Source: Branchiostoma floridae (taxonomy: Eukaryota; Chordata; Leptocardii; Amphioxiformes; Branchiostomatidae). Taken from it: a stretch of DNA of 64,000 nucleotides. Below, piece after piece: positions 15,801 through 64,000 of this stretch. Positions within the stretch are counted from its first letter, which is position 1. Each line of letters starts with the position of its first letter. The notes beneath the pieces were generated by a model. That model was given only the letters and a program-made list of their open reading frames with translations, was not told the DNA's origin and made no database searches. Location of the stretch: positions 13,419,822 through 13,483,821 of the forward strand of contig NC_049982.1 of assembly GCF_000003815.2 (NCBI RefSeq), given 5' to 3'. The position numbers and the translations under genes were made by a program.

Positions 15801-18800
15801 TTCACCCAGCCATCAATCCATCCAGCCAGCCACCCAGCCACCCATCCATCCTGGTGATCCATTCAATGATCCATAACAAAGATGATGATGTGATTAAAAG
15901 GCCTGACTTTACAAATACATGTATGCTCACCTGACAGTGAGGACATGTGACATGCTGCTCTAGTTTGACAGCACAGCATTGTGGGAAGGGGAGCACCAGA
16001 CTGTGACTGTTGGCCAGTCGCCTGCTCATGGCCTCAGCTGTCTCCATGGAGCGCATGCAGTGGTCACACGCTGAAGGGAGGATAAACATAACTCACACTG
16101 ATAGAACCACAAAGAATTTAGGACTGTTCAAATGATCACAATTGCAAACTCCACTTTCTCAGTTTAGATGAATGCACATTATGCTGTAACTAGGTGTTTA
16201 TCTAATAGGCAAACATTATCATACCCCATGGAAAACATATCAGGCAGTTTGCTAAAATTGTTACAACAGTAGGCTTAACCCTGTTTTATCGAAAGGACTT
16301 ACCTAATTGACTGCATCATTTAGGTATAAGTGGACGTCACATTTAAAAAGTGGGCAGCTTTTTTACACCATGTCAAATAGAAAGCTTAGACAGCATCGAA
16401 CAATGGTAACGTTTGTTACAGTTACTGTAAATGCAGAAATGGTGCACAAAAACGGTCTTTTCTAGTCTTAAATGTGGATAATATAACCGTGGCAACTATC
16501 GTACTCGTGGTGGTAACATTTGTTACCGAATTAAGTGACAGGCATAAACCACCTCACACAAAGCCTCCAAGATCAGTGACAGTAGCGATCTGACGTGATC
16601 GGGCAAAGGGCCTGGGCAGCTGGTTTTACCTGCCAAACAATCATTCTATGAACTGAATGGTTACATATGGGGCTAATTTACTAGTATTTGAATCTTCGTG
16701 TCTTCTCAGGCAATTTTTAGGGGGTGAAATTCCACCCCTGGCTATGATAATCTTCCAAGCCATCAACCAATATGAATGTTGCGGTGCATCTTTTGTAAAA
16801 CATTACAGAGATGGTGAAAAAATGAAGGAACCCATGATTTTGTCTAGAACTTCCTGCGTATCAAGTCGCAAAGGCAGGCGACAGCATTTTTTATATTTAA
16901 ATGAGAACAAGCCAGTAAAGAGTAGGCAGCAGGTGGGTATTTCCTGACCACAATGAAATTTTTCAAAGTGACATATGCAGAAGACTGTAATCAAACCTGC
17001 TGTATATATGTGGGCCCATGCAATACCACATGTAGGGATCGCAGTTTTTCTTCCAGTGTATTTGAGGACTGGTAGGCACAAGGACATTAACAGAACAGAT
17101 TAAGTAATGAATTTTTAAATCAATCATATTACTAATTAACATGAAAATCAATCTTAAGCCTACCACCTGATTTTTGTCTACCACAGGGTCCCCATTACCA
17201 CTGAAAGAGGTTTGATCGATATGCTCAATATTCCATTTGACAGAAACAAGCACTTATACTAATTGGTTCATACTTAGCAAAATCTATGCAAATCAATTGC
17301 ATCCATCAGAATAGCCATCAATCTGTTGCATCAATCCACACTCAATGTACCTCAATATCTTGGAATTCTAATGGCTATGATCTTGGAATTTCAAGGAAAT
17401 TGCTAGAGGCAATTCAGCTAAGTTAAGACTTGAGAGGTAATCACATGACAAATTAAAGGTGATAACAGCATACTTGCAGATGAGGTATTGTTGTTGTTCA
17501 GATTTTAAATTTTGCGCTTGGTTTGGATATTGATTTCGTAATGTCAGTCTTGATCAGTGAATTGGGTGTTTAAACTCCTGTGGGACACTGCTGTTCAATT
17601 CAATTCATTCCACCCCAATGACCTTGAGGGTGTTGGTGTTCCAAAATCCCTATGTTCCGAAATCTCTATGTTACAAAGTCCCTTTGATAATGATGTGAAG
17701 TCCCTCTGTTCCAAAATCTCTATCACAGAGTTCAGTTGCAAACTTTTTATTTAGGCTGCTAAACGTTACTAGTAGCTCATGAATGCACGCTACCTAACCG
17801 TGCACCAGTTCGATAGCATCATAGCGAAACTTTCAGAAGAATTCTTGACGAATGGCAGAAGATGAGTGAATGATCCAATCTGAAAACTAGAATTTCAATG
17901 TTTTCTGCTCAGGGCGACCCATGCGGAATCAGGTCAGCATTCAGGAACGTTGTCGGAAACTGTAGCTTCGTGAACTTAGTGATAGCTGTTGACTTGTAAC
18001 CACCATCCGTGAGTTATACATGTAACCGTTACATGATTAAAGCTGTGTGTCGGAACACTCACATGGAGATTTCGGAACATAGGGACTTCGGAACATAGGG
18101 ATTAATTGAACAAATCCATCCCCAGAGATGTACTGGATCAAACTCGAATCAATATCAGGCTTTTCACATTCATGTAAATCTATTTGCATTCAATCAAATT
18201 GCCTCTGTAAGCAAATTGATTTGGATTGATGTTGCCGAGTGTGAACTGGGCCAAACATACCAGTGTATTTATACATCGCATTCCATAAAAACTGGCAGGA
18301 TACTATGGGTTTCTCCCTGAAGATAACCTCTCCCTCCTTGAAAGATCTTGTGGCATGGAGGCATTTCCCCTGAAAATAAAATAAAAACAAAACAAAATTA
18401 TTTATGATTTCGTGACCAGTAACCAGAAACCAAAGTAACCAGAAAACAATTTCTGGGGTGCATGTGATCGATCGGAGGACAAAGTACCCTGCCACTTTAA
18501 CCCCGCAATATGTTATGTTTGTCATAGATGATCACTACTAGAGAGTGGTTCCAACTAGAGTGTAGTCTCCAAGCAGACCCTACGGTGCCTTAGAAATAAT
18601 ATCAAAGCTGGCAAAGGAGTATAGCCGGCCAAAGGGAGATAGCCGGCTAAGGTAGTCAAACGGGCACCTGGTGCCGGTATACCAAGTCCCTGGCCAGCTT
18701 TGATATTATTTCTAAGGCACCGTAGGGTCTGCTTGGAGACTAACTAGAGTGATCCTCAACCGAAGAATTCTGAAGTCTGCCCCCCTCCCACCTATACAGT

Positions 18801-23339: not shown

Positions 23340-26300
23340 ATGTCGAGCTGCTGTAGTACAAAGGATGGCTGCAGTGCAAATGGACAAGGTAAGATCCAGG
23401 TAGAGGAAATATCATACAGAAGGACATATGGCACATAACTTCCCATGTCCCACAACAATATTGACCAGTACTGTAATTGTTATCCTTGCAAATGTCTAAC
23501 TTAAAGAAGTCAGACAGACCCTTTTGGTTTTTATAGATACACATAGTATGCAAACAATTTGTAGTTAAGTGTGCAAGATATTGAATAATTTGGAAGCCAA
23601 TGAGTTTTCCCAAAAAATTTTAATTTATAACAACAAAGATATACAGCAATTTCCTGATGCGTAACAATGCATCCCTGCAAAAGATATCTATTTTGAACAT
23701 TATTTTTCAAAGTAACAATTGCTTTGATACTATCACCGGAAAAGAAAACTGGCTAACTCCAATAATCTCTCAGGCAATGGAGACAAGATCCATGACGAGG
23801 TAAAGGAGTACTATGGGAAGAAGGTGAAGACCCAGAAAGACCTGGAGACCAAGGCCTGTCTCATGATGCCATCCAAGATACCATCACATGTCAAACAGGC
23901 ACTGTCTGCAGTCCATCCTGAAGTAGCTGCCAGGTCTGGAAATGAACAATTTTACTATTTGTGTGTGTGTTTGTTAGTTCATGAAAAGCTAAAATCACCC
24001 AGCAGCCATCTTTTCATTTAAGTCATGAGGGAGGAGGTAGTGGTCAGACAAAATAAAATCTTCAGACAGACTACATAGTCCATACAGTTGAATCTTTACA
24101 TGACGATGTTATCGCAAAAACAGATAACCTATACTAATCAATGGTTGTTGGATGTGTTCTTACTTAAAGATAGCTTTGTAAGTTAATCTTAATATCAGTG
24201 TTGCTCACACACTGGTCCCCTGCCATCACAGGTACTACGGCTGTGGACTGGTGGTGCCAGAGTGTCTGGAAGGCGCACATGTGTTAGACTTGGGAAGTGG
24301 AACCGGCCATGACTGCTTTGCTCTTGCCAAACTGGTTGGGGAAAAAGGCCATGTCACTGGCATAGATATGACTGATGAACAGGTACAGTTTAGGACAAAA
24401 TTACTAGACCACAAAACATCAGTGTAGCAAGTAGGGCTACAAAGCTTAAAAATTGTTCAAAATTATAAATGCCAGAGAGGCCTAGATTGGCCTAAGATCA
24501 ACATTCCTTGGATAATTTGCAGGATTTTTTGCATCGGTCTTTTTGCTTAAAATAATGTTTAGTCCATACCCTCTGTCTTGTCATCCGTAGTGCTGTACAG
24601 CTGCAGTTTTACTTAACATATACCATTTCATCTCTCCCATGTTTAGCTGGATGTTGCCAGAGAGTACGTGGACTACCACCGTGACAAGTTTGGCTACTCC
24701 AAACCAAACACAGACTTTGTGAAGGGTTACATCGAGAAGCTTGGGGAGGCTGGGCTGGAGGACAGCACCTTTGACATCATTGTCTCCAACTGTGTGGTGA
24801 ACCTGTCTCCAGACAAGGCAGCTGTGCTGAGGGAAGGGTACAGGGTACTGAAGGTAATGTTTGGGATATATCATCATCTATTACAGCTATAGGAAATGCT
24901 ATGGGAAATACTGGGCACAGATGGGAGTCTTAATATTTGTGTTTGATTGAAATGCATTGTGCATTGCATTGTTTACCTGTAGATACTATGATGATACCTA
25001 GGTCAAATTTGTAACACTTCAGAAGTTGGTTTGCCATTATGTTTCATATGTGTTGATCTTTAGCGTACAGAGTTTCTTTTCAAATCATGACGGGTGAAAT
25101 GTGGCTAACATGTGTTACATGATCTCTCAGTGATGTGTCGTGTTAAGCAAGGTTCCTGTTCTCGTTTGCTCAGCCTGGAGGGGAGCTGTACTTCAGCGAC
25201 ATCTACGCTGACAGAGACGTGCCTGAACATATCAGGAAGGACAAGGTCATGTGGGGTCAGTCTTTACTGCTCCAGTCTACTGTTTCATTACTCAATGATT
25301 ATTATAGACAGAAAGAGTGAGTATGTAGGCAAATATATAAAAACTTGTCAGAAGTTATAAAACCGTGAAGTAAAGGGTTTGATGGATGGATGGAGAAGTT
25401 GACAGATAAGAAGACATTTTGAGAAGGGAAGGACCAAGAGACTGGACAGAGACATTTTTATTTACTACCCCATATGAAAGGAGAACTATAGTCATGTGAT
25501 TTTCCTCATGTCTAGGTGAGTGCCTTGCCGGTGCCCTGTGGTGGGAGGACCTGGTCACACTGGCTAAGGAGGTCGGTTTCTGTACACCCAGACTGGTCAG
25601 TGCAGGGCTGGTCAACCTGGACGATAACAAGCCCATGAAGGACCTCGTAGGTGAGACTTGTCATGACTTTCACTAGTATGAGGAGTGGAAAGGGAAGGGT
25701 AGTCTACAGAAATGATTTACCCAAGGAAGTTTACACACAAAAACAGAATTAATGTAGGAATAACTGAGCACAAACTGAAAAAAATTCACGCTATGTGCCA
25801 TGTGAAAATGGTGTTCTGTACCAGGGACAGGCCTTTTAATAGGTGTGTTGTCTGTCAGTGGTGTTCAGCACCAGGGACAGGCCTGCTAAAGTGCATGTTG
25901 TCTTCAATGATGTTCAGCACCAGGACAGGCCTGCTTACCCATGTGTTGTGTGTCAAAGGTGTTCAGCACCAGGGACAGGCCTGGTAACACGTGTGTTGTC
26001 TGTCATAGGTGTTCAGACCTGTTTCCGTATGTGTGGAATATAACTCTGTGTCACTGATTGTGGTGCATGTAATCTTCAGGGGACATCAAGTTTGTGTCTG
26101 TGACGTACCGACTGTTCAAGCTTCCACAGAACACCAGTAAGGAACCAGCTCAAGTTGTATACAACGGCTCTGTCACTGGGCATGAGACAAACCTCAAGTT
26201 CGATGCACTGCACACCTTCCAGGTTTGTCTTGCTTGGGTTCATTGTCTTAGTAACATTAAGTATGCACACTTCTTTGGTTGATAGTAATTTGTATGTAGT

Positions 26301-28760: not shown

Positions 28761-31700
28761 CTACACAAGGTTATCTTTGTAGACAATCGCCTCCATGTTG
28801 ATATCTTCGGGAAGGTAGGCCTGGCAGCGGTTCTGACGGGAGGTGCTCGCCCTGATCATGGCGGCGGTGCCATTCTGGGTTCCCCAGCCAACCGGCATGA
28901 TCCGTGCCTGAGCGGCCGCCCCCTTTACGACGCGCAGCGCCGCCTTGCGGAATCGCTGGTTGAATGCAGAGTAGATGATGGGGTTCAGCATGCAGGACGA
29001 CTTGGCGCACATGGTGGGGATGTAAAGGGCCATGATCGGCAGGTGCCGCTGAAATATTGCCCAGGTCGAGGAGACGGCGTACGGTGTCCACACGGCGACG
29101 AAAGACACCACCATGAAGAGGCACATCTGTGAGAAAAAAGCTTCAGGCTAAGTTCTGTAGAAGCACCTGATGGTAAAGACATCTCGTTACCAGCGATTCA
29201 CGGACTACGTCACCGTTCTAACCTAGTCGCCCTTCTAAAACTACACGTTCCATTTTCTTTGACTTCGTGCCATGTAATCCGTCGCACATTCTAAAATATC
29301 ATTGGGACACGCTTCCCATGCTCTGACGTATAGACATTGATGTATATATGCATGTATGTCGCCAGAAGTACACATGGGTGCTAGCATAAGGAGTAAGCCT
29401 ACCTACATTTGTGTGTGGATGGCATTCAGCACTAGGGACTGGTATGTTTGCCTGTGTGTGGGTGGCATTAAGCACTTAGGACAGGTCTGTTTGCCTGTGA
29501 GTGGATGGCATTCAGTACTAGGGACGGGTCTGTTTGTGTGTGGATGACATTCAGCACTAGGGACAGGTCTGTTTGCCTGTGGGTGGATGGCATTCAGCAC
29601 TAGGGATGGGTCTGTTTGTGTGCGGGTGGCATTCAGCACTAGGGTCAGGTCTGTTTTTAGTGTTTGACTGTGTGTGGATGACACTAAGCACTAGGGACAG
29701 GTCTGTTAACTTGTAAGGGTGACTTGCATTCAGTACTAAATGGCAAATCCTACATATCGACGCGAAGCATCTGAACTGCTCTGAAAGCCTAGATTAGTGT
29801 AGCTTGGGTACCTGAAGGCAGGTCCCGTTGTAATCGATTTGTTACGATTAGCGCACCTAGTGCTCAGCCAAATAAACTAGTTTACTATCGGAAGTGCGTA
29901 AACTTAATGCTCCTTACGATGATGTTCTTCCTTTTGTCCTTCTTCACAACTTGCCGCGCCTCTTCGCTGGCCAGGGCGGCGAATCGCATGGAATCCATCC
30001 GCCGAATGACCCGGATGTAGCAGAAGATCATGACGGTGACGTGTAGAACGTAACACCCCAGCAGACACAAGGACACGTACAGGGCATCAGACACACTCTC
30101 CACGTACCAGTCTATGGCACAGGACGTTCCTGAAAAGGCGTATTGATACTTCAGCACGCTGCACTTTGTACAGAAATACGCAGTAACTGCAGCTATGACG
30201 ATGTGTTTCTGTTTTCGAAATAACTCCAAAATTTTAAAGACATGTTTCTGAACAACAGACGTTTTACCATCATGCTTTACCAATGTGAATTGCCCAAGTC
30301 AGGTATATTGTAAATGTTACTGTCCTAGCTTTGAAGTCAAGCCTATGTTTCTTCTTGCAAGCACCTTTCCAGTTTGAAAACCAACCGTGAAATCAAACTA
30401 CGCACGGTCGCTAATGAGTGAAGCATAAAGCAAGCAGGGACATATCAAGCCCAATTGCAGAATAGGCAAAGCAATATCAGACAATTCTTTGATTAGTTGA
30501 CTGTGATATTTAACAATTGACCTGAAAGCTTCTGTAGTAGGCTTAAATGAAGGGAATCTAATTCAAGCCACGCCAGATCTCTCCTGTAAATCTCCTTCGA
30601 AGTAATTGTGTTCCTGATGCTTTGCCCTGTTTATATGTTCACAGACTATGTATGAAACAGTAAAAAAATGTACATTAGCCTCTGTCGTCCAAGCAGACCT
30701 TAGATATGAACCGAACATCTTCTAATCGCGCTCTAAACTTGCACATATGTCCAGATTGTGTATATGTTTCTTGACTTTTTAGATGTAAAAAAAATGGCAG
30801 TGTGCACCAAGGGAAGGTAGGCAAAGTTCTTACCAAACGGCAGCATACTGTACGAACTCCATCCGAACAGAGGCGGTACGGTCCAGACCAGGGCGTAGGC
30901 CCAGATCCCCACGATAACATGCACGGTGAAGCTCTGGGTCAATCTGCAGGCTGTGAAGAGAAATGATACCCTACAATGAAGGGGGGGGGGGTACAATCTA
31001 CGGTTTTCTTATAGTAGCGTCAAGTCACTCACTATTAGACACAAAACCTGCGTGTTACGAAACACATCGCAACGTTAACAAATGCAGTTATAGCTTGAGT
31101 GTCGTCCTAGTTAAGGCTTAGGTCACATTTCCAAACCGTGGCCCGGCCGCGGGATGTTTAAATGAACGAAAAATTAAAACAAATACCTAGAATTTTATGC
31201 CCATGAATCTTATGCTGACATTTTGTGTATTTTGATATCTTTTGTATTATTCTTTTCCCTCCCGAAAGCGGCACGGCCTGGCCCAGGTTTGGAAATGTGA
31301 CTTTAGCGGGGCTCCCACACTCTCCCCTCATATATGGGAGCTCCGATAAATAAACTAGGATGACACACAGGCCAGACAGTGCCTTTTCTTGCATGGAGTT
31401 ACATGGTTCCGATGTTATGCAGGTAGAGAGTGCGAACAATTTTTTCAAAGTCTAATGGAACGTTTTGCCCCTTCATAATCGGACACTGCAGGCACCATGC
31501 AGTGAATAGCGTCGTTAACCTTTCGCTGTACCGAGCATTGAAGTCTCGCGCTCCCTCGAGGTCTCGCGTTACTATCATAATTCCAGTCACGGGTCCACAA
31601 AATTAATTGCCATTCATGAACTTGCTAACATCGTAGATCCTTGTCTATAACTTGAACTAGGCGGGTGTGTGTTATTATAGACTTTGATATGTAGTTTGAT

Positions 31701-34700
31701 CAAGCAGTCTATCTCTCCCACCTCCCCAAAACACGTGTTGAAATTGTTTGAGCTACCCTCGAGCATTTACGACAAGCTTAAAGTTTTCACAAAAGCAGGC
31801 TGATTTTAGATAGAATAGAAATTGCGTAACTTTGCGTGGGGGGGGGCGGTTCTCGTATGACGGATCTTCAAATATGCTACATATCATTTTTTTTTGTTCT
31901 CCTGTGGAAGTGTTTGATTTTCTTGGCAGCTAAATGGTGGCTTTCAGTCCGTAATGTATAATCTCTGCCATCGCGACAAATCGACAAGATTCAAATCTCC
32001 AAGTACTGGAAAAAAAGATTCAAACCGATCTAAAGTTAAAGGCAATAACTAAGTACTTATATATCTCAGACCCTACACAAAAGATAATTAAGATCAATGA
32101 GTGTATTTGTAAAATACTCCGTTTCCTTCAATATGCTTAGAACATATAATACATCAGTCACACGTTTGCCACTGAGAGTGTCAAAAGTTATGACGCATAT
32201 GTTAATCTGCAGAAATAAATAGTTCTCTGCTTATTCACTATAGCGACGACTTTGTTTCCTGAAGCGTTAACGTTTTTCTATCAGTGGATAATTAGTATGT
32301 CTTGTGCTTGGTTTGATATGCATACAGTTAAGAAATGCATGTATTACTCCCTCCACCCTTGTCCTGTTTGGGCCATTGTACTCACGGCTGCAATATGGAA
32401 TAAACCTCCCATGCATTTATGCCTAGCTGCTAGCAAACTCCGAAAACATTCTTAGATCTAGAGAAGGCAGCAATCTGTAGACTGGGGTTGACAATAATAA
32501 TAATTTCTTTTTGATTCAACAGGATAATTTGTGGGCCCTACAAAGTGATACACTTATCCGCTGAAGTGCTCGTGTGTGTGCTTGCAGGCATATGCGTTCC
32601 CATACAATCTGGCTCAGTAATAAAAATCTAAAAATGATACGGGGGCAGCTCGCCAGAAGAGGCCAAATCTCATTCCGTTCAGAGACTGTTTCCCATGGCT
32701 GATATTGACGTGCTTGCCGGGATAACACGATTAGAGTGGGAGATCGGATGTGGTCAGAAGCGTGTGCAATTTCTATCATCGGAGATTACCCCCTGGCCTT
32801 AGTGACGTGGATCATGTCTGTGGAAATGTCGCTAATAATGCATGCGCACAGTAAGGTCGTTTCTGCGTTTCATGTTTTTTTTTTTAATGAAAGGCTTTTA
32901 GGAAGAAAATTAATGTCCTCTAAACGATTCTCTGTCCTATGTCTCTTGCACATCGTGCCTGGAATTTGCAAGACGTTCGATCAGTGGACTGCGTTTGTGT
33001 TAGAAACCCATGCGTCGTATGTGGAAGTCTATCTGTATGTAAGTACGTAAAGAGAATAGTCATGGCATTATTTGTGAAACCTGCCCAAGGCGACCACGGG
33101 GGGGGGGGGCGGAAAAAAGCGGTCGATTTGGACAGGTGGTCGCTGAGAAGAGTATCGACTCAAAACGTGCCCGATGCAAAGTATAATTTTTTTTCCGTTG
33201 TGTTTAATGGCAAATAGCAAGCACACTGCACGCACGCAAAGAAGCGGGGTCTTTAATGTCAAATACAACACGCACACTGTAACCTATAGATTTAACCCCA
33301 AGCTTTTATCGAGATTTTATACGATACAGTGTTTTAAAGCTCAATATTTGTACACTAACGTTTTAGACAGTAAGGGAACTTTGATGCTGCCAGTTACCAT
33401 ACAAGCCTTTATGCGTCGCTGTGTTCTTGATCGCCGTATCTGAAATAACTACCGTGCACCTTTCGAATTCGATGCCCGGTATGGTGGACAAAAGCACTCA
33501 CACAGATCTTTCTTAAAAAGGTATGAGGCTATATACGTTTCAGCATTCGATCACTTTATAAAAAAAACTTCTGTAACAACTAAATTTGGATTTTCTTACG
33601 AAATTTCCTCTCATATTACAGTAGAATTCCATTGACCCACCCATTTATTCTAAACATAATATCGTAATGGCAGTCAAAATCCGACGCAAACTGGCCGATT
33701 TCGGCACAAAATCGCGCTAGTTATCATCAGAAATCGATGAAAACCTCAATTTTAAAAATGATGCGGTCGTTATGGGTCCCAATTCGGGCCGGTCGCGGTC
33801 GCGTTGGCCAGGTGGTCGTTGAGAAAAGGTCGCTTAATGCTTACGTCAATGGGGGAAAAAATCGGGACCGAGAAAAAGCGGTCGAAATGGCCAGGTGGTC
33901 GCTGAGTAGAGGTGGTCGCTAGGACAGGTTTGACTGTATATATATATTTTTTAAATTTTTTTTTATTCGCATTTCTTTAAAGAGGATGAGACGGAAAGCA
34001 GACTCTGCTTATCGAGGTCTTCTCCTCATGTACATAAACAAAATAAGGACACACATACATGGCTACAAAACGCTAAATAACAAAGTCAAGAGATAATGAT
34101 AACGGTATATTTTTACGTATAGCTTTCTATCTTTTGTTTCTACAGACAGCCCGGCCGGGCCCCGGTTTGGAAATGTGACGTTAACCTTACTGTGGCTTGT
34201 GAATGGTGGTTGCATGTGCCAGGTGTTTGACCAACCACACTTCACTATACAGAAACCTTTTTGTAGTGTACATGTGCACATGTGTTTTATCATTGAGTAT
34301 GGTGTGATACGTACCATACTGCGGTTTACAGATGATGATGTACCGGTACACGCTGATGACACATAGCGTGTTCATGCTGCTCATGGCACAGGTGAAGCAG
34401 ATGAAGCCGTCCAGTACGCACCACACCTCGCCGAACAGCCACTGCTTGGCGTAGCTGGCGATCACCGTGAAGGAGTAGCCGAACACGGCGACGGCCAGGT
34501 CCGACACGGCCAGGTTCAGCAGCAGGATGTTGTGTTCCTTTCCTCGGAACTGCTTCTCTTTCAGGAACACGCCGATCGCCAAGCCGTTACCGACCACAGC
34601 TACAATGCCTTCGAAAGTAATATAAAGAAGTACACATGTATCATACTCATTACAGAGTCAGTATACGGGTTAGCATTTATTTCATTTACTTGCTCAGCTT

Positions 34701-37700
34701 CACATATTTGTTCATTCAGCTTTACAGATTTAAAATAACAAATCTGAGCTGGCAACAGAAAAATAAAGGCCGGCTCCTCAAATAATGACATAGATATATA
34801 TTCGCTCATTTCATCAAAATAATGCCTATGCATCACGTTCCCGTCAGATGTGAAGTTTATTTATGACCAACGATTGTATTTCAAATGTGGAAAAAGCAGC
34901 ACCTATTTAACCTAACGGCGACCTAGACGCACACATTACCCGGTATTCCCTGTCACGATTTTATCTCAATCGTTAACTTCTTTTGTGTGGAGTTCGCGCT
35001 TCCCTAGAACTCCTAGTCACCTCATTGACAAGTCGACCCGACTCCACCGACGACTCCGCAGGATGGATGTGACACCAGTCCGTTCACGAGTCTGTGTCCG
35101 AGCTATGATATAACCAGTCCATTGATTACGAGTACTCTCGCCTTCTGAGCCATGAGACGCATTGGACGCCGGATGATATTCCAAAAGTGCAGTACATGCC
35201 TTTGAACGCCGAGATGAATTACTTATATTGAACTTGATCTTTCAACACTTGAGTTTGACTAAAGATGTATAATAGATGGGCCTTCTCTACCACTCTTCTA
35301 CAGATGTGTCTCCATGGATTCTAGTCGTTCATGCCCGCATACTGATGAGGTGTGAGGTACGTACAGTTATGCTTCAGTCTGAATCTTTCTCGTGAGGGCA
35401 ATTAGGGGTCCTTTCGAGAGACATGGGACTGCGATTGCCTTGGCTAGACACGTGCTAAGTGACGGAGAATTCTACAAGTGACCTATATTTTATGACATAC
35501 GGTATGGTATTGGTGCATTTTTAAAGGTGCACCTTAGATACCGTAGTGGATATTCGGAACCAATAATGTGACGCTAAAGCCTCGGTGCCGTTGAAGATAG
35601 GGAATGTTTAATTGGCGGATACATTATGCTGTCAAGTCTGTAGCGGCCTCCTTAGCGCGCTGTTCCATCATTATGTCCATTATCTGTGTCCAACTGCGCT
35701 CACACAGGACGTAATATTATATCTATTGTCAGCATCCGCAATATCTGTCAAACAAAACTTAATCCATGCTGGTAACTACTGCGGCCATGTGATTCTTTAC
35801 AGATCTGAATGACCACTTTTTTTCGGAGACTTATTCGATGTAGTTTGTTTAAAAACTGTAAATGATTTGAACCTCTTTAACCGTGTCTTTTCATGTATTC
35901 TCTGATTTCAAGCCATTTGTGGATATATCTTCAAAGTTTCCAATCCACTTAGAATTACATGTAAAGCTTCTGGTTCCTCGTTTGATTGCACTAGTTAAAG
36001 TTGTTGATGATCAAAGCATTTTCCCGCCTTGAAATTAAAGCAGCTGCTCGCTGTATGTAATCTTCTATATGGACTATGAAGATAAAGGCACAGTGCCGTC
36101 CTAAGTTGTAATCTCCCAATATCTTCCCAGTGGTGCAATTATAACCCTTTTAGATTGCAACCAGAGGTATTAGTTAAGTCTCCATTTGAAATGTTCTTAA
36201 ATCCATTTTGAGTTATTATGGAAGATGCAGTGAGTGGAAACTGATGGATACGCTCTAATACAGCAGTCTATTAATGCATCCGGCTTATAGTAAAACATAC
36301 ATCACAACAATGAAAACATCTACATACAATATGAAATAAAGGCATCTCAAGCATAGCTATTCATGTGCACGGACTGCTAGTGTAGGAATGTGGGGGAGGG
36401 GGGGGGGGTGAATTCGCGATTTTCAACATGGAAGGTTCTGATGCCGGAAATGAAGCTGCTGTGGGCAGGTTTCCCGGCATATATTACTTTCCCGGCATCC
36501 GAATCTTTCTGGTTGAAAATCACGAATTCTCACACAACACCCCCATCACCCCGTTTTGATATCTACATTGATGTCCTTGATGATACTGAATGGCATCGGG
36601 CGTTTTTAGTAGAGAGATCTTCATAGCTTTGCTGTTCAACGTCTTTGAAGCCTTTAATCACCTTTATCAGTGTTATTGAAGAGCACAGGCGGCATGTGGA
36701 GGGACATCCTTTTAACTTGAAAGGAAACGTATGTAATCAGTCTGGACTAATTCAAGTCATTTCTGCTCCATGTATGAAAGTAGATTCCCTTGCATATCTT
36801 ATGACTCTGCCTCTACCATCTTGGGCAGGATATCACAGACCACAGGACAGATCAATGGCAGGGACATCTGAAGAAACGTGCATGGTACTTTCGCATTGGG
36901 ACTTATGACTTGGAACAAACTTCATGCAAATGTAATCAAGGAAACCTAGATATGCATTCTCTAAAGTGTCTAGATCTCTTCTTGAATTTTACATCACAGG
37001 CAAAGGTACCAGCGTAAGTGACACTGATAGGATATTACACATTTGAAAGACAAGCGATGCTAACACTGAATGTCGTTGGAAAGTGAAAAGAAGCGTGGGC
37101 CTCAAGACGCGCTGAGGGTAATGAAGTTTTTAGCAAGAGGGTATCTTGGAGACTTAGTGTCCATTAGTACAGCTCGAACCCATTTGCCAACCAAAAGCCG
37201 CAGCATGAAGGAAGACGGAGACATGTCGTCTAACCAAGGAGAATCGATTGGTCGAATCAATCTCGTGTGAAGACACTGAAGTCGTCTCGTTCTCTTGACG
37301 GTTGCATGCGCGCCACAGGGAAGTCAATGAGCGACTCACGTAGTCTTCAAACAAAACGGAACACAGGAAAGAAGTATGATAGTCTAATGAGGCTTTGTAG
37401 AGTTGAGTTAAGTTATGATACTCTCCGATCCCATATCTGGTACTTTTACTGAACAGTTCATGTTCAATGATTACACAACTTGATAATTTGTACTTTATAA
37501 TTCTCTTTAGAAAGATGAATGTCCTTCAATATTCTGGTACAGAAATGCTTGCAAATGTATATATTTTTTTAATAGTGTGACCGGCTTTTATTACAGCTAT
37601 TTCAATGTATACAATGCCGTACATCTTGAGATAAAACTTGTCAAGACTTGTTTGTTATCTGTTTTCTTTATCATTGATTTAAACGGCGCAAACCTGCGTC

Positions 37701-40700
37701 ATTCAAAACGAATGTTACCGATGGGGGTTTGCCTTTATTGACTACAGAACAGAAAAGACACTCAGGAGAACGCTGATAGCTTTATGCTTCCATTTATCAG
37801 CACGAGATAACAGATCTGACAGTTTAACTGGACCTTCGGAGTTCCCTCACTTCGTAAATCATCTCAGTCGGGTAGGAATTATTGTTTTAGCTACTTGGCA
37901 CCACACGACACCCTTAGTTTAATGAGTTCCAAGCACCGCTATCACCGAGATAACAGATTCGCCAAGTTTGAAACTATGGATCTTACTTAAAAGCATAGCG
38001 CTTCGGCATCCCAGAATTTCCTTTCAAAGGAGGCCGAGCGGGTGGCAGCGCTAGTACTGACGGGAGGGTGTTCCAGAGTAACGTAACGATTCTCTCTGGT
38101 TTTCCACCACGATAAGCTGTGTTCATACTTGCGTATGTATTCAAGTCCGAATGAGGTCCGTATGAATGTCTAGGCCTCTACCAGGTTCAACAGGTCGCTG
38201 GAAAAATAGTAGAAATTGGACAGATATAGACACTTAACATGACAACAGAGCAATTATTATCTGGCCGAGGAGTTTGATTTGCGACCAGCTAACTCCTCTG
38301 GCATGTTATCAGGCTTTGTCCAATTTCTTTTTTACCAGCGACATGTGGAGCCTGGTAGACGCTAGACTTCCACACGGACCTTATTCGAAGTTACGCATGT
38401 GTGAACCCAGCTGTACAGAAGAACACGTTCAGTAAAAGACCTTGAATGACCTTCTCCTCAGGTGAGGGGCTCAAGTGAATCATGATCAAGTTCGAACTCG
38501 CTTGGATCGTTCATGAACCAAATGAAAAGCTAAGTGTTCCTCGCTCACTACAAACTATAATAAAACACAGAAGACCATTTTGCCTTAAGACTTAGAGCAG
38601 TTAGAATTACTTGCTTCATTTCCCGACTGTTATGGGCGATGCGTAGATAGAGCGACCGATCTAAAGACCTCCACTCAGATAAGTGGAGATAACGCACAAG
38701 CACTTAGCATGTCCTCGAGCTCCCCATGCAATACCTTCCCCTCATGGTCATCAGCACGCACAGATTCCGCTATAAGCGGCGGTCGGGATGCAGGGTCCCA
38801 TTCTGCAGCAGCTTATTTTGCTGGAAGCGGAGAAGCTTTGGGAATACCAATGGGGTCGTGATTGGGAATACAATCAGGATGTATGTATCATGATGATTAG
38901 AAGAAGGCAGCTCAGAAGATCAGACGGACATATATGCAACAGAGATTGCATTATTAGACGACGAACCGTGTAAGACGAACGAACCGTAGAACGAAGGAAC
39001 CAAGTAAGACGAAGGAACCATGACGGTATGGTGCAAAACTAACAGGCGTCGCCATGCGGGAATCGCTCTCTCTCACACCGCGCATCCCCGTATCTTATCT
39101 GTTGCGCACAGGAAAGCCTTCATCAATACTACCGCGCTGTAGGAGGATGAAGCGGCTATCTCAGTCCTCTTCTGCAATGTCTTCCCTTCTTTCTTGCGTG
39201 GCATTCAAACGCCGAAAAAAGAACAATTATCCTGCCATAACGCATGGCCGAACATGTAAATGAATCTGACAATGTTTGTTTTTTTACTACAGGGGATAGC
39301 GTCCCTGTGACATGTTTGACTTTTCCCAACAATTCGACTGCTTACATTTCGGTGTCTTAAAATGATCTTGATGTCACTGTGTTTCACCTTCGTGATTTAA
39401 TTGTGATTATACTCATCGTCAGCGTCCTAGCCATTGTTGCCTTCGCCAAGAAAGTTATTTGTGCGTGTGTGTGTGTGGATCCTGATGATATTTGGTAGCT
39501 GAGTAGGTGTCAGGGCAATAAAGGTCAAGTTCGATATTGGGCCCCTAGCGGCTTTCTAAGATACTGTAGTGGAACTTCCATTTTTAATGCTGCCAGATCG
39601 TGATTATGAGTGGTAGATGGCTCTTGGACAGTAGTTACTATAAGTTTATTCTGCAGGGGCCGATTTTGTTTCACAATTTGGATGACAATAACTCAAAAAT
39701 GTCTTGACGGATCGTCAATATGACTAACATAATGAAATACCAATAACGTAAATCAGCAGCTAATACTTATGATCAGTGAGAAAAGTTTATAAGGTAAGTG
39801 AAGGTGAACATTGTTTTAAATATCTTATTCAAAGCCTCGAGAAGAAATCTAAAAACAGTATTCAATGGAAGGGCGCAGGTCCAGGCTGTAACACGACAGA
39901 GATCTCCAACCGTCTGGGAGAGCTGAAGGATGAGCTGGAGGCCCTGGAGAGGAAGGAGGCTGAGCTGGACCAGCAGCGGCTCTGGGTGCAGCAGAGCATC
40001 AAGAACGTCACTGAAGACGTGGAGAACCACCGGCTGGCCTACGTCACGCACGAGGACCTCTGCAGGTGTTTCAGAGGAGACACACTTCTAGCGGTCCAGG
40101 CCCCCTCAGGTACACAGTTAGAGGTGCCCATCCCAGAGGCAGCGTCACAACCACAGGGCAAGAAGTACCAGATTCACCTCAAGAGTCACTCCGGTCCCAT
40201 CTACGTCCTGCTGGTCAACAAGGACACGTCCAGCTCCAGCCCGGTGGTGGTGCCGGTCCCCCCGCCGGACATGCCGGGCGTACAGCAACCGGGCACCCCG
40301 GCTAAAGTACCACAGCAGACGGTACCACTGGTACAGCAAGGTGTCTCTGCGCCAGGCAAGTCTGGGCTCCCACAAACAGCAGTATCAGCCTCTCCCATGG
40401 ACACCATGAGTTTACCTGCCCCCACCCAACCCTCACCTGTCAAACCTGGCCTGGCACCAACACTGGGTGGAGAAATTCATGCTTTTGGGGACATCGGTGG
40501 ACTCTTCGACCCCTCAAAAGATCCATCCATGGATGGAGAGTTTATAGATGAACTGATGGCATCAGAAGCTTTCGCACCTCTCCTGAGGTTGTCTCCGCCC
40601 CCTGGCGACCACGACTACCACTTCAACTTGAACGACTCGGAAGGCGTCTGCGACCTCTTCGATGTCCCCATGTTGGACCTCTAGAGACTACGGCAGCTGT

Positions 40701-42655
40701 TCTGACAAATAAACAAACAAACAAACAAGCGAAGATCACATCTGGAAAAGGACCTGTTTGTTGCTGAATAAGCTACTGTACAGTTTTGTTGGACAGGATA
40801 TGGTTTTTATGTAGGTAGAAGTACTACACATATTATCTGTATATATAGAAGTAGCCAAGATGACTTGACAAACAAACAATAAAAGAACCCTCATTCTCCA
40901 CCTGCTGGCTTAGTATCAGGTGCAGTACCATTACTGGGCAATAGATGTCTCTTCTGTACAGTACAAAGAATTGGGCTTCACCACTCATTTAAGTACTCTC
41001 CTTCAAGCACAAATCGAAATGTCACCAAAAAGCATATTTCTGCTATTCTTTACAGTGTTTTCTTTCTTGTGTATCTGTCTAGATTTTGTGTTTTAATGAT
41101 TGATTTTAACAAGAGCATCCGTTTGCAAGGGATGTAAAAAAAAAGACGTATCAAGTTTTATATTAGACTGTAGGAATTATTTTGTATATGTAGAGTGGGA
41201 ACATGTTACTTGTAACTGATGTTATGGTGCTGAGTCTATTGTGTATACACTAAGACCTTCTGTAAACTCAAGTCTTTGTGTGGCTGCTGACCTACCAGCC
41301 AAAATCATCTGATAATGTGGACATCACCATGACTAATGGCATGTTAATTTACCGGTAGCACTTAAGTGGTATGGCATGTGTCAACTTCAGGTCCACTACA
41401 CTACAGAGGTATTCTGTCTCTAAACGCTGGAAGATGTGCACACAAATTGATGATGTTTCCTAAACCTGGGAAGATGTGCACAGGAATTGATGATGTTTCC
41501 TATACCTGGGAAGATGTGCACAGGAATGGATTATGTATTCCTAAACCTGATGATATATTTGGCAGAAATATCCTTACCATGCATTGTCCAAGGTCAAATG
41601 TCTGTAAGCCTGCAAACATGCTTATCATACAATATCAGGGCAACCTAAACAATGACAAATCTCCCAGTTCAGTCATACAAAGTGCAGTGGGCCTTAAAGC
41701 AAGAGGTGAACAAAGGGTCAGGAGTTATTTATTTTAAATAGTCTCATTTTCACAATGATGTTAGGTGAAGTCTCCAAACAGAGGATAGGCTTCAGCTTGT
41801 TAGGCTTATCTTTTTTGGTTGTTTTTAAAATTGGCTTCCTGTTTTGTCAGGTTTACTTTTTGTCTGTAAGTCAAAGAAGAAAACCTAACAAAATAAAAAG
41901 GCAGTCAGAAAATTCATCAACAAAAAGCTAAAGCCTATTCTGTGCTAGGAGTCAGGGTAAGTTAGGTGTGTCTAGTGGTGAGTGTAGCTTATACTTCAAC
42001 CAGTGTACCAAAGTTTGTCATTTTCATTACCTAAAGACATAGTGTTATTCCTAAGCTATCTGTAAGTCCGAAATACATACTATTTGTCTATACAACCATT
42101 GTATTACCTTTACATATAGATACTTTGCTTACGTCTAAGATCTTTGAAAAAAGCTTACTTCTAAGATCTTTAAAAAAAGCTATCCTTTTGTACTTTGATC
42201 AAGGAATCTGGTGTGTAATATAATGTAGATATGGAAATCATTTTTTAAAGAGAAAATGGTTAGATTGTAGGTGTATTTTATGAATGGTTCATATTAACAT
42301 AGTAGTTATATTGTTTGAATCATTGTTTTTTAATCAAAAATTGTATAAAGAAGTCTTTGTTATGGTTAAGGGAAATTCACCTTGAGCAACAGTCTTTGGT
42401 ATGGCATTCTGATAGTATTCTGCAAGCAGAGGTTGAGTCGGGGGATAATAATGCTTCACTCTGGAGCGGTAAGAATTCCTGGCCACAGAAATTCCCCAAA
42501 GCAACCTCTGCTTGGAGGATATTCTAATTGATGTTTTGCAAATTCCTGATAATTTTTGACATAGTCTGAATTAAGCACGACATTGCTCAAGGTGAATAGT
42601 CCCAACCTACTTGGTTTGATGTTCATGTTTCAATAAAATGTTTAAAATTAAAAAA

Positions 42656-42706
<51 letters not shown>

Positions 42707-44125
42707 TTCAAAGCCATTCGTTGAGCATTAGACGCACTTTTGCTTATATGTGTTTTCAGTTTAAAATAACATAACAGATTGCAGTCGAAATCAAAAAGGG
42801 GAATAAAAATTACAAAAGTTACATATAACTCAAGTTTACTTCACATAAACTATGTCATTATCATAACATAACAGTGATAACAACGTAGAAAATCAATATT
42901 TATAAAAGTTACATATTAGTTTAATTAGCACCAATACAGAACGAAATGAATCAAGATTACGACATTACACATACAAAGCTGACAGGCCAATCTACTAAGC
43001 TACACGAATCCTCCAGTCTTGGCTAATATGCGATTTTCATACTTTGAACAATTTATATTATTTTCTTGGAGAAGATGATCAACTGAAACATACAAATGAG
43101 GGCCTTATCAATATGAAAAGTGATAACACTTCACTCTACAAAGTTGACATTTTTAACTCTAGTTTTTATTGTTGTTGTTATTAGTATAGAGATATTAATG
43201 TTGCTCACTTTTCTGTATTTTTATAATCTTGTAATATCGAGTCAGTAACGTGATGTAACTAGACCACCAGATGCAATCGGGTCGATCGTTGATGACAAGG
43301 CATGTTGATAATGGCGAAGCTAACAAATGAGACAGTGGGTGGTTCTTATCACTGGCTATTGAGGCGATGAAGTTTTCGTCTGAAGCAGTCAGAACCATAT
43401 TTACCGACGATCTCTGAAAAATTCATGACATGCCGAAATTCCAAGAAAATGTTTTGTGCGTTGATTGAGGAAAGTTTCAATCGGGAGACATCATTGATCA
43501 TTTGGCAAATCGGTCACGCAGGAATGAATTGCCACGTGTACATGCGGAGTGTCTGCCAAAGGTGACATTAAATCGGTCTGTCGTGTTTTTGCTTAAAGAG
43601 TGACGTTAGGAATGCGACGTGCAAAACGTTTATGGAATGTTCGTAATAAAACGTGCTGAATCACAGAATCGACCCAATCGCACAAACCCAATCATGGGGA
43701 AATCCCACGAGTACCAAGTGATGCTCATATTTCATATACTCCATGTATGTTTGATAGATCCCAAACTTCGTGTTGGAAGTACTAGTAGTCGAAGGCTGTA
43801 GCTGTAGTATTACTGGAATCGAATCACCAGCACAATATCGTGAATGTTTATACCTAGCAGGATCCACATTTTTGATGTCTCTCCGTGTTCAAATTAAATG
43901 CAACTTACCAACAATGGTGAGGTATATAGCGATAGCCATGTGTACATCTGGGTCCAGCTGGTGCGTGGTAGTGTTGTATCTGTTGAAGTCGGTTTCACCT
44001 GGAAGCGGATCCTCGTCACTCCAGCTCGGGGCCCAGTCGTGAGCATCCCGAAGGTGACTGCCGGGCGGTCTCGGTGTCCACGGCGGTCCGCCCGCAGCGT
44101 TCAAACAACATGTAGAGTTGTCCAT
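28761..44125 (-). CDS. Group-4 (Opn5/peropsin-type) opsin, complete, five exons
   Basis: A seven-helix retinal-binding GPCR. Exons in transcription order: 43909-44125, 34315-34608, 30834-30950, 29918-30129, 28761-29126. Phases agree (1,1,1,0) and total 1206 bp, 401 aa. The N-terminus has glycosylation sites N3-S-T and N51-T-T. TM1 is [16 protein letters not shown]2 has LAVSDL (D109). C136 and C213 are the conserved disulfide. TM6 has W293xP295Y. K322 in CAKSS is the retinal lysine, followed by NPIIY (328-332) and NQR. Wording such as [16 protein letters not shown] and [10 protein letters not shown] is closest to Opn5; AKSS-NPIIY fits the wider Opn5/peropsin/RGR group, so the exact subtype is open. 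Odd: YRY (160-162) replaces DRY, D139 sits at bovine position 113 and L207 at position 181. An acceptor-like CTCCTCAG ends at 44147, so an upstream non-coding exon is possible. Intron 1 (9.3 kb) contains an antisense E2F retrocopy. Confidence 0.93.
29410..29725. repeat. Minisatellite in opsin intron 4
   Basis: Seven to eight units of about 40-46 bp, with core GGCATTCAGCACTAGGGAC followed by GGTCTGTTTGCCTGTG. Longer and shorter units partly alternate (GTTTGTGTG versus GTTTGCCTGTG). The core is homologous-looking to the 50-bp array in AS3MT intron 6. Confidence 0.9.
31117..31305. mobile_element. MITE with TCACATTTCCAAACC termini
   Basis: The left arm GGTCACATTTCCAAACC, followed by GTGGCCCGGCC, is mirrored by GGCCTGGCCC then AGGTTTGGAAATGTGAC at the right end. 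It is about 190 bp long and the borders are approximate. A second, one-sided copy ends at 34187. Located in opsin intron 2. Confidence 0.65.
33070..33160. mobile_element. Fragment of the CAGTCAAACCTG MITE family
   Basis: The segment around GGCGACCACGG, a poly(G) run, AAAAGCGGTCG and GGACAGGTGGTCGCTGAG matches wording in the block at 33737-33938. The ends are not preserved. Opsin intron 2. Confidence 0.4.
33737..33938. mobile_element. MITE relative ending CAGGTTTGACTGTATA
   Basis: The right terminus ACAGGTTTGACTGTA equals that of 22266-22449. The interior has GGTCGCTGAG and GGCCAGGTGGTCG repeats. The left boundary is unclear; it could begin nearer 33620. In opsin intron 2. Confidence 0.5.
34050..34187. 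mobile_element. One-sided copy of the TCACATTTCCAAACC MITE
   Basis: It ends in CCCGGCCGGGCCCCGG then TTTGGAAATGTGACG, matching the right arm of 31117-31305. The facing arm is missing or too decayed to see. It lies about 130 bp downstream of opsin exon 2 in transcription sense. Confidence 0.45.
36390..36553. mobile_element. Foldback MITE with GTGAATTCGCGATTTTCAAC arms
   Basis: The left arm runs from the poly(G) run through GTGAATTCGCGATTTTCAAC to GATGCCGGAAA. The right arm is TTTCCCGGCATC through GTTGAAAATCACGAATTCTC to a C-rich end. Arms are about 55-60 bp with some mismatches and a loop of about 40 bp. Opsin intron 1. Confidence 0.7.
38115..38412. mobile_element. Foldback element with about 110-bp arms
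   Basis: The left arm begins AGCTGTGTTCATACTTGCG and includes CTACCAGGTTCAACAGGTCG and GAAATTGGAC. The right arm carries the reverse complements (GTCCAATTTC, CCAGCGAC, GCCTGGTAGACG, ACCCAGCT) in mirrored order. Identity is roughly three quarters by eye. The centre is about 75 bp. It resembles a large MITE in opsin intron 1. No target duplication found. Confidence 0.65.
39822..39836 (+). repeat. 5' target site duplication of the E2F retrocopy
   Basis: ATCTTATTCAAAGCC, identical over 15 bp to 42701-42715, which follows the poly(A) tract. The base before and the bases after differ between the copies, so this is the full length of the match. Confidence 0.93.
39839..40684 (+). CDS. Intact E2F4/5 C-terminal reading frame within the retrocopy (no start codon)
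   Basis: 281 codons without a stop or frameshift. Aligned by eye with vertebrate E2F4 it is colinear through the coiled coil, marked box, proline-rich linker and acidic C-terminus, but the linker is shorter than in human E2F4 and lacks the serine run. The first in-frame ATG (40271-40273) would leave 137 residues, holding only the linker and the pocket-binding tail. Whether any protein is made is unknown; the entry records the frame, not evidence of expression. Confidence 0.6.
41395..41560 (+). repeat. Short tandem repeat in the retrocopied 3' UTR
   Basis: Three imperfect units of about 47-50 bp containing GGAAGATGTGCACA, GGAATTGATGATGTTTCC and TAAACCTGG. They lie inside the E2F retrocopy, so the array should also be present in the parental E2F mRNA. 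Confidence 0.8.
42418..42516. mobile_element. MITE of the CAAGCAGAGGTT family, inside the retrocopied 3' UTR
   Basis: The left end GCAAGCAGAGGTTGAGTCGG and right end CAACCTCTGCTTGG are inverted repeats; the subterminal GTCGGGGGATA is shared with 56450-56541. It was presumably part of the E2F mRNA when it was copied, so the parental 3' UTR should carry it too. Confidence 0.65.
42632..42637 (+). terminator. Polyadenylation signal of the retrocopied E2F mRNA
   Basis: AATAAA 24 bp before the 39-base A tract at 42662-42700. This spacing is right for the signal that directed cleavage of the source transcript. Confidence 0.85.
42701..42715 (+). repeat. 3' target site duplication of the E2F retrocopy
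   Basis: ATCTTATTCAAAGCC directly after the poly(A) tract, identical to 39822-39836. Confidence 0.93.
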
Positions 44126-60497: not shown

Positions 60498-63400
60498 TCA
60501 GATGGTTCCTTGTTGGCAGCATCCTCTCTCGTACAGACGGGTGCTTCGTTCCTCGCCTACAGGCAGCGGGAGGGGGAGGGCGTCCTCGGCATCCGAGGCC
60601 TGGGGGAGGAGAATGGCACGTCAGGGACAAAAAGTACCTTATACATCACAGGCAAGTCTTTGATTAGACCAGTATGCAGCACAGAAAGGTTAAATTTTGT
60701 GTTGTTGTACTGAAGTCATTTGAACTGAGCTCTGGAAAAACATGCAGACCTACAACTGTGCATAACATAGTGAAATGAAGAATTATTCTTTGGCAAATTT
60801 CTGTAATACTGACACAGTTATATGCTACTTTTTTCTTGCACATAATGCACAGAAAACTATAGTCTTACGTCGATGTCAGGAAAAGGAAACGTGGCGTGAG
60901 GTGAGGCCACATCCAGCAGCAGCCCTCCAATGGCTTCTCCAAAAGCTGGGGGTTAAACAAAGACAACAGTGAAAAGGCAGTCACAACACTACTTGTCTTC
61001 AACACCTGATAACTCCAACTTAAGAACTGGTGACTGGATATCAATAAACCCTCCAACACAAAACAAGCAGGAATTACATTAGTAGTTAAAAGTGTCAAAA
61101 TCAACTAATAGAGACACCTTTTTCCCAGTCATTTATGAAAAACAACAGTCACAATGATTATCTAGTACTACAAGGTACTTTCTATCATGGTAAATAGTTA
61201 TGTATGTATGTATAAAAGATGGGAATTTGAGACCCAGACAGGCCCTGTACTTACGATCCAGAGATCCCAACTCTTGTGGGTCATCGACCTCTGTGCTCCA
61301 AGGCTTGGCTGCAGCCATCCATGTACCAGAGATCTCTACTGACAGCATCCCCTGGCTCGACTGGGGTGTATCCTCAGTGTTCAGGGGAATATTCTACAGG
61401 AAAAGGAAAAACTCCAGTTCAGAACCCAAATAGTTTGGAAGCATCTAATTGATCATCAGGATGCTGAATGCCTTGTTTGGATACTATTCTGCAGTGAGAA
61501 AAACATCCAAACCTACATGTACAATGTAGACTATGACATGTCTCTTACCTCCCACAGGTTAGGCGGAGGTGGTGGCAGCTGGTCCTTCTCAGTGCCGACA
61601 TCCTTGTCCTCATCAAAGGACTCCCTGCCGTCAGGGGACGTCCTCTCCCCCTGGGTCAGTACCAGCTCATCCAGAATGGGGGAGAAGTCCGAGCCGTCCA
61701 GCTCCTCCTCACCTCCCACATCTTTCACACTCGTCTGGGAGGATTTCTCAAAGGAAAGTTTCCTCAGCTGCGGCAGAAGATCCTCACAGAGGTCTCCAAC
61801 CAGAGGTTCCTCAACAGTTGCCAATAGGGGCTCCTCCACACCTTGTACCATCACAATCTCCTCCACTGTCTCTGGTGGAGTACTGAAGATATTGTCCACA
61901 GCTACCGCCTCTTCTAAGTCCTCCTCCTCTTCCAGGATTTCCGTCCCGTCCGAGTGGTAGCACTCGTCAGGGGAGGTTTCGCGTGAGGTTATCGGTTTGA
62001 AGTGCGTGCGAGACGACACAAACAGGTCTTCCTCATCCTCAAACGAGCCGTAAGAGTTCGGCTTCGGCTGAGTCAACTTGGACTGTTTTGGCACAGCATC
62101 TGCCTCTACCTTGGGCTTAGGTTTCACCTCAGTGAAGCAGCTTTCCCCCTTGTGGTACTCCAGTTTACTCACAGGAGCCGCGGACTGGGGAGCAGCAGCG
62201 GCTTCATCTTGTACAGTTTCCACGGGGAAGGCTGGACAGGACTCGCTGATGTTCTGTGGACCGTACTCTGCATACTTGTAAGGATCTTCCTCTCCTACAT
62301 TCTGCTTGTAGAATTCTGTGCAGATACTGGAGAGAACTACGCTGTCTGCAAACTGCTCGCTATCACTGTGCACAGAGTGCAGATCTGTCGAGTCGTCCTT
62401 GCTCACATCACTACCATGAGCAAAACTGAACCTTGACCTACTGTGATTTGAAGCATCCGAGAAAATCGGGGAGGGGGCAGACGTGGGAGTGAAGGATCCC
62501 GTGTCTGGAGTTTCCCACACCTCCCTCTGCCCTGCCATGCTGATCTGTCCATACAGCCCACCAGTGATGAAGCTGCTGCCCACTTGCAGGAAACTCAGGT
62601 CATTGGGGCAAGGGTACCCAGAATCTGAGAAATAGCCACTGAAGTCGTCCTCGCATTTCTCGATCCTCGAACTCTCCATCCACGGGCTGAAGTTTGCCTC
62701 TGCCTGCTGGGGGTTGTCCCCAGTCATCGGAATATTTGTGGACAGTTTTCGAACCTGGGGAGACTCGCGCCCCGTGTACAGGTAACTGTCACTGGAGCGC
62801 CGACGCACACGTTTCCTGTGCAACCATCGTCCGACTGGGAATGTACTGTTCATCTTCTCGGTGGTCTCCTCGTCAAAGCAGAACTGCCTCTCATTGCCAA
62901 CTGCCCCAAACTCAGGACTGTCATTCTCAGGTCCGCCCTGCTCCTGCTGGCAATCTGTACAGCTGGCAACAACAAACAAATCACCATCTGCACGGTTGCT
63001 GTTCTCCAACAGAGGGCGATCCGACTCCTTCGTGTCTTCATAGGTGAAGACATCACGAGGGAATGTAGCATTCCCGTCTTTGTAGGAGTTTGAGTCCTTT
63101 GCTACTGGGGACGCACGTTCACTCAGGAACCCTAATCTGGGTCTGTTTCTCCAGATGTGCAGTTTGGCGTCCGAGGAGTCTCCTCTCTCTGACACGGGAG
63201 AGAACAAGCTCCTGTCTCCCAGATGGCTCGTGTCTATAATACTGCCACTCTCTGACCCTGGGGTTTCTCTGCCCCAGATGGGGGCGATCTTGGAGCCGTA
63301 CCTATCTTCAAACTCAGCTTCTGTTATATCTTCCAATGAGCCCGAAGACTCCGACAGGTTGTCACCTTCTGTTCTGTTTGGAAAGTTTTTAGACTGTTTT

Positions 63401-64000
63401 TCTACATGAGAGTCTGTGTGTTGCATAGATCTATGGCATTCCTCTAATGATACACTAATGTCTGGATGTGATGTGGTTCTGATAGCAGCATTCTGGCAAT
63501 GTTCTATACAATTTCCATGATCAGTTCTCTGTTCTTTGGCACTTTGTGAATGTTCTCTGTCACACTTTTCAACAATTGTCCCCGACCTTCTCCGAAACAT
63601 TTGGTCCCCTTCTACTTCGCAGCCTTTTTCCCCTTCGAAAGCTTGCCTGTTATGCATACAGTCTATGCAACATAGCTGATCATACAGGAGCTTCTCTTTT
63701 CTATCAGGGTCACTTTCTTGGCTCCAGTCTACCTGACTGTCTACAGTTGGAGACACCATTTTGTCTCCGGTGGAAAGCACTGCACTGTCCCCGTATGTGT
63801 ACCCCATCTCCAGCCGACTCCCTGTCTCCACCCCATCGAAGAAATCCTCAAACATGGGACCGTCGTACCAGTAGCTCATCTCTGCGGTGGCACTGGCCTT
63901 CTCCATGAAGGGATAGTCCCCGTCACTCCTCCTGGCAGGCATGGCGGCCGTCTCCTTTCCCACAGGCTCAGTGTACCACAGGGGAAGGCTCTTCATGTGG
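60498..64000 (-). CDS. 3' part of a gene for a long acidic protein, function unknown
   Basis: Four exons in transcription order: 61549 to the right edge (2452 bp, open throughout), 61255-61393, 60869-60945, 60498-60599. Borders are GT/AG and phases fit (0,1,0), giving about 915 codons; the N-terminus is off the window. The large exon is rich in Ser, Asp, Glu and Pro, with no transmembrane stretch and no folded domain I can name. It has many short motifs: GYFSDSGY, RSRFSFAHGSD, SFEDEEDLFVSS, EEEEDLEEA, CEDLLPQLRKLSF (KLSF resembles a PP1-docking RVxF motif). The small exons read PLNTEDTPQSSQGMLSVEIS, then PFGEAIGGLLLDVASPHATF, then an ending GCCQQGTI. RFSxxHxSD, YFSD and CEDL-SF phrases also occur in the disordered tails of lemur tyrosine kinases, but in a different order, so a kinase-tail identity is only a weak guess. 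The two last exons rest on splice logic alone. Confidence 0.75.

Follow-up and report, generated by a model that had tools for sequence, protein, structure and literature searches.

The window analysed here, a 64,000-nucleotide (64-kb) stretch of the Branchiostoma floridae genome, carries a predicted opsin-like receptor gene on its minus strand. The Pfam domain 7tm_1 was found in three of the ten frames scanned, all on the minus strand: one at 34187-34654 (8.2e-20), the remaining two scoring 26.7 and 26.1 bits, under the curated cut-off of 30.5. The first covers exon 2 (34315-34608), which spans TM1 to TM3 and has an AG acceptor adjoining 34608. When phase-1 donors were sought upstream of this exon, four candidates came up, one of which is exon 1 (43909-44125, MDNSTCC...AIYLTIV/G), with a GTAAGT donor whose GT lies at 43908; exon 1 alone has no Pfam match. 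The predicted join of the two exons delimits a first intron of 9,300 bp (34609-43908). A TM4-like frame lies at 30733-31008, and an open frame at 28761-29147 (minus strand) encodes TM6-TM7 with a lysine motif. Searched alone against the PDB, exon 2 is closest to cholecystokinin receptor A (4.8e-12), with an LW opsin fifth (6.5e-12); for the TM6-TM7 frame (28875-29147), opsins come top among 43 PDB sequences. The opsin label therefore rests on TM6-TM7 and its lysine, and the predicted product is a seven-transmembrane receptor that carries the retinal lysine in TM7 and may be neuropsin-like.

Other features were noted in the window. Antisense between the opsin-like TM5 and TM6 frames, at 29.4-29.7 kb, lies a tandem array related to mir-2060, a family not known outside amphioxus; the array is in keeping with a lancelet source for the window. 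It comprises at least seven units on the plus strand in 29403-29700, where the search ended, with starts 39-52 nt apart. The match at 29446-29539 is the only one in a whole-window Rfam scan to reach its gathering score (60.7 bits against 54.5); in a permissive scan one of four mir-2060 matches reaches it, in a shifted register. Two Rfam mir-2060 matches lie on the plus strand at 25793-25990 (25.8-26.0 kb), where the B. belcheri miR-2060c-3p sequence, as given in a passage of PMC5650284, matches at 25863 and 25961, with one mismatch each, and at 25813, with three (0.02 matches expected). An 822-codon open frame on the minus strand (61531-63999) runs off the window end and has no Pfam match at E 0.1. 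Another minus-strand frame (18190-18531), which has no Pfam match at E 0.001, presumably resembles the start of a SMYD-type protein.

Within the first intron, on the plus strand, an E2F-like sequence is bounded by two copies of a 15-bp repeat, ATCTTATTCAAAGCC, at 39822-39836 and 42701-42715. These are identical at 15 of 15 positions and the match extends no further on either side; the first A of the repeat is common to the end of a poly(A) tract, so that 14 bp of the target-site duplication (TSD) are certain. An exact search of the 64 kb for the 14-mer returns these two copies alone, each on the plus strand, against a chance expectation of about 2.5e-5 in 4 kb calculated from base composition. 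With up to two mismatches allowed, one further match appears at 58166; three or more matches were obtained in 5 of 100 shuffles, and chance explains this third one. The poly(A) tract consists of 40 As (42662-42701), or 39 without the A shared with the 3' TSD; no other run of A or T in the window reaches 14. An AATAAA polyadenylation signal (42632-42637) lies 24 bases upstream of it, and a further signal-like hexamer, ATTAAA, is present at 42647. The exact 15-bp flanking duplications and the pure 39-base A tract 24 bp past AATAAA reported in the initial annotation are thus as described, and the locus has two features of a processed retrocopy, namely a TSD at both ends and a 3' poly(A) that follows a polyadenylation signal.

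The E2F frame starts directly at the 5' TSD. It is open over 281 codons (39839-40681) followed by TAG, as had been claimed, and the coding sequence (39837-40684, plus strand) comprises the end of the DNA-binding domain, where truncation has occurred, the coiled coil-marked box and the C-terminal region. Pfam PF16421 (E2F_CC-MB) matches at 4.6e-33 over profile positions 1-96 of 96. In a PDB search at E 0.001 the complete set of matches was E2F5 (1.1e-44), E2F4 (5.4e-44) and, far weaker, E2F1 (7.5e-07), which places the sequence nearer to E2F4/E2F5 than to E2F1. The CC-MB domain is read without a break in both searches. No E2F DNA-binding-domain Pfam match was found in the frame at E 0.1; absence of this winged-helix domain is expected of a truncated copy, and the sequence is therefore a copy of an E2F4/5 member and not a full member. 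A stretch of 12 residues that resembles E2F4 is presumably the only remnant of that domain. The last 43 residues may resemble the E2F4 C-terminus; against the PDB, at E up to 10, they matched no E2F, the single match being ribosomal protein L30 (E 1.1). A weak Pfam match to HTH_Cmi2_C (E 0.027, 15.2 bits against 27) was taken as chance.

The coding part is followed by a 3' UTR of 1,977 nt (40685-42661, plus strand) that includes the AATAAA. The two elements pointed out earlier in this UTR are both present: a 40-bp tandem repeat of 3.2 copies (41420-41549, plus strand) and a palindromic MITE-like element (42375-42597) with inverted ends identical at 15 of 15 positions (42375-42389 and 42583-42597) and a folding z of -6.16 for 42365-42605. 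The latter may already have been present in the parent or have been acquired afterwards. Three of the five matches to its end in the window lie outside the copy, with three mismatches each, and show no excess over chance (mean 3.24). Inside the copy, four Rfam matches score 24.7-26.5 bits where the gathering scores are 88-97; all four fall on one hairpin (41821-41915) and were attributed to chance. ARAGORN found no tRNA.

The UTR also differs from its surroundings in CpG content, with an observed/expected ratio of 0.19, the 3-kb flanks having 0.86 and 1.03. This agrees with, without proving, a sequence brought in from elsewhere, such as a methylated gene body. When change points were modelled over 30-52 kb, the depleted segment was placed at 40753-42703 or 40352-43204, with a gain of 32.6 log units in each case. 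The best change point does not begin at the 5' end of the copy; the coding part has a ratio of 0.53, close to the median of 0.59 for stretches of that length in the window, and on the left side of the copy the 36001-37000 interval has 0.50. Other CpG-depleted stretches occur in the window, one of 0.07 in 848 bp near 10.2 kb and one of 0.17 in 1,977 bp near 26.3 kb. The idea that CpG depletion is unique to the copy was rejected because of these equal minima elsewhere, and the signal was kept as support alone.

Taken together, these data indicate that the sequence is almost certainly a processed retrocopy, truncated at its 5' end, that derives from a spliced and polyadenylated E2F4/5 mRNA, as originally proposed on most of the same marks (TSD, poly(A), AATAAA, unbroken frame), to which the E2F5 and E2F4 PDB matches are now added. 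The reading follows from the exact 15-bp repeats that adjoin the E2F sequence at its start and the poly(A) at its end, the 40-A tract 24 bases past AATAAA, the full E2F4/5-type CC-MB domain without a break, the exons of one receptor gene on either side, and the CpG-poor UTR between CpG-richer flanks. Exons 1 and 2 enclose the copy on the opposite strand with donor and acceptor in place, which supports its antisense position in the first intron of the predicted opsin-like gene and agrees with the nesting first described. Duplication at the DNA level was rejected on the TSD and the poly(A). That the sequence might be the authentic 3' exon of an E2F4/5 gene whose DNA-binding-domain exons lie farther upstream on the plus strand would account for the 281-codon frame, the normal stop, the UTR and the poly(A) signal. 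However, a genomic exon is not expected to finish in 40 As or to carry identical 15-bp repeats at its ends, the repeat leads straight into the E2F frame, and the locus is spanned on the other strand by the opsin-like gene, so we regard this explanation as extremely improbable. We give next to no credence to a cDNA misjoined into the contig through an assembly or library artefact: the near-perfect cDNA-like 3' end would suit it, but a contaminant would not lie between two copies of one local 15-bp sequence.

Target-primed reverse transcription is recognised by a TSD, a poly(A) end and 5' truncation. For the processed retrocopy, we infer an insertion of LINE type, in which a LINE-encoded protein would have nicked the target site, reverse transcription would have been primed on the poly(A) of the E2F4/5 mRNA and would have halted within the DNA-binding-domain codons, causing the 5' truncation, and a 15-bp duplication would have been left behind; the empty site would hold one TATCTTATTCAAAGCCATTC. 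The initial annotation had gone further and proposed L1-like trans-mobilisation. The consensus of the L1 endonuclease is TTTT/AA, and the predicted bottom-strand nick, AGAT/AT, matches it at two of six positions (one of six for AAGA/TA, if 14 bp are read). A score of at least 2 against TTTT/AA is reached at 56.6% of window positions on both strands, so the nick is no better than an average site. An L1-type endonuclease is not supported by this nick, although a single site cannot exclude one.

In its present form the copy is unlikely to yield an E2F protein, as the first in-frame ATG, at 40271, comes only after the CC-MB domain; the copy would be neutral and without a promoter of its own. It could instead be a functional young retrogene, expressed as an exonised chimeric transcript or as a truncated E2F, devoid of the DNA-binding domain, that titrates DP or pocket proteins. 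The frame is indeed intact through the CC-MB domain to the stop and open upstream to 39773, and Table 1 of PMC3136929 classes 176 of the 337 retrocopies of amphioxus as retrogenes. Yet there is no in-frame start codon ahead of the one just mentioned, the promoter and 5' UTR were removed by the 5' truncation, and a very recent neutral copy would also keep its frame intact, so that we hold a retrogene to be very unlikely. A further slim prospect is that the insertion is still polymorphic and that its antisense poly(T) and intact CC-MB frame let it act in the host gene, either by altering the splicing of opsin intron 1 or, if sense-transcribed from a captured upstream exon, as an E2F4/5 devoid of DNA binding that titrates DP and pocket proteins.

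The state of the copy suggests that the processed insertion is probably recent. From the TSDs, the A tract and the open frame, divergence since insertion is below 1.3-2.1% (95%) if the frame is neutral, a rough bound that uses assumed indel rates and the copy's own marks. The same neutral bound is 1.65% with one indel per ten substitutions, and medians are 0.3-0.5%. In simulations with 3,000 runs per value, all marks survived in 40% of runs at K=0.005, 16% at 0.01, 2.3% at 0.02 and none at 0.04. Without the frame, K is bounded at 4.3% by the TSDs and poly(A) together and at 10% if only the TSDs are used; most of the strength of the age bound comes from the open frame, and it is weaker if selection kept the frame open. 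Amphioxus heterozygosity is given as 3.2-4.2% in the abstract of PMC12500494, and because the neutral bound lies below this range and the 4.3% bound is about equal to it, it is plausible that the insertion is polymorphic, as had been suggested. Presence/absence variation is described as widespread in lancelets in parts of PMC12373286.

As to the parent, Table 1 of PMC3224931 lists one E2F4/5 gene for B. floridae, which is a candidate parent and makes it unlikely that the copy is the only E2F4/5 gene of the genome. Passages of the same paper report an exon-intron structure common to the human, fly and worm E2F4/5 genes and leave intron positions relative to the retained part unstated.

Searches of the literature on amphioxus retrocopies, E2F4 retrogenes and amphioxus E2F4/E2F5, mostly by title, returned no title on this copy. 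Retrocopies are not mentioned in the available passages of PMC9673378 or PMC12373286, where the lone "retrogene" is a reference in PMC9673378, and passages of PMC5802833 describe Branchiostoma opsin loci as populated by transposable elements. According to passages of PMC3136929, retrocopy number correlates with LINE1 copies across chordates, amphioxus being left out of that count. The claim that L1-like mobilisation of host mRNAs operates in this lineage can be kept only in part: a host mRNA has been retroposed, the L1-like component is not supported, and retroposition of host mRNAs in lancelets was already known (PMC3136929, PMC5803294). The E2F4/5 copy is a real, ordinary and probably recent processed retrocopy. 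As a well-preserved retroposition event it could be used as a presence/absence marker and could help to show which LINE is responsible for retroposing mRNAs in lancelets, as a single data point, without changing the general picture.

Truncation at the 5' end, seen here, is also a common mark of mammalian processed pseudogenes mobilised by L1. The poly(A) end and TSD are shared with these elements as described in parts of PMC3747384. In contrast to the mammalian L1 products, the cleavage site of the E2F4/5 copy does not match the L1 consensus. Among amphioxus cases, the B. floridae retrocopies reported in passages of PMC3136929 (n=337, 235 intact against the parent, with no burst of young ones) are likewise host mRNAs copied to a new site with an open frame; set against that collection, the present copy has identical TSDs, a pure poly(A) and a 5' truncation. 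Like the AmphiSYCP1 retrogene, it is an amphioxus retrocopy that consists of a single exon and lies next to a developmental locus, but AmphiSYCP1, from what is stated in sections of PMC5803294, is older than the divergence of three Branchiostoma species, has replaced its parent and is transcribed, whereas the E2F4/5 copy is truncated.
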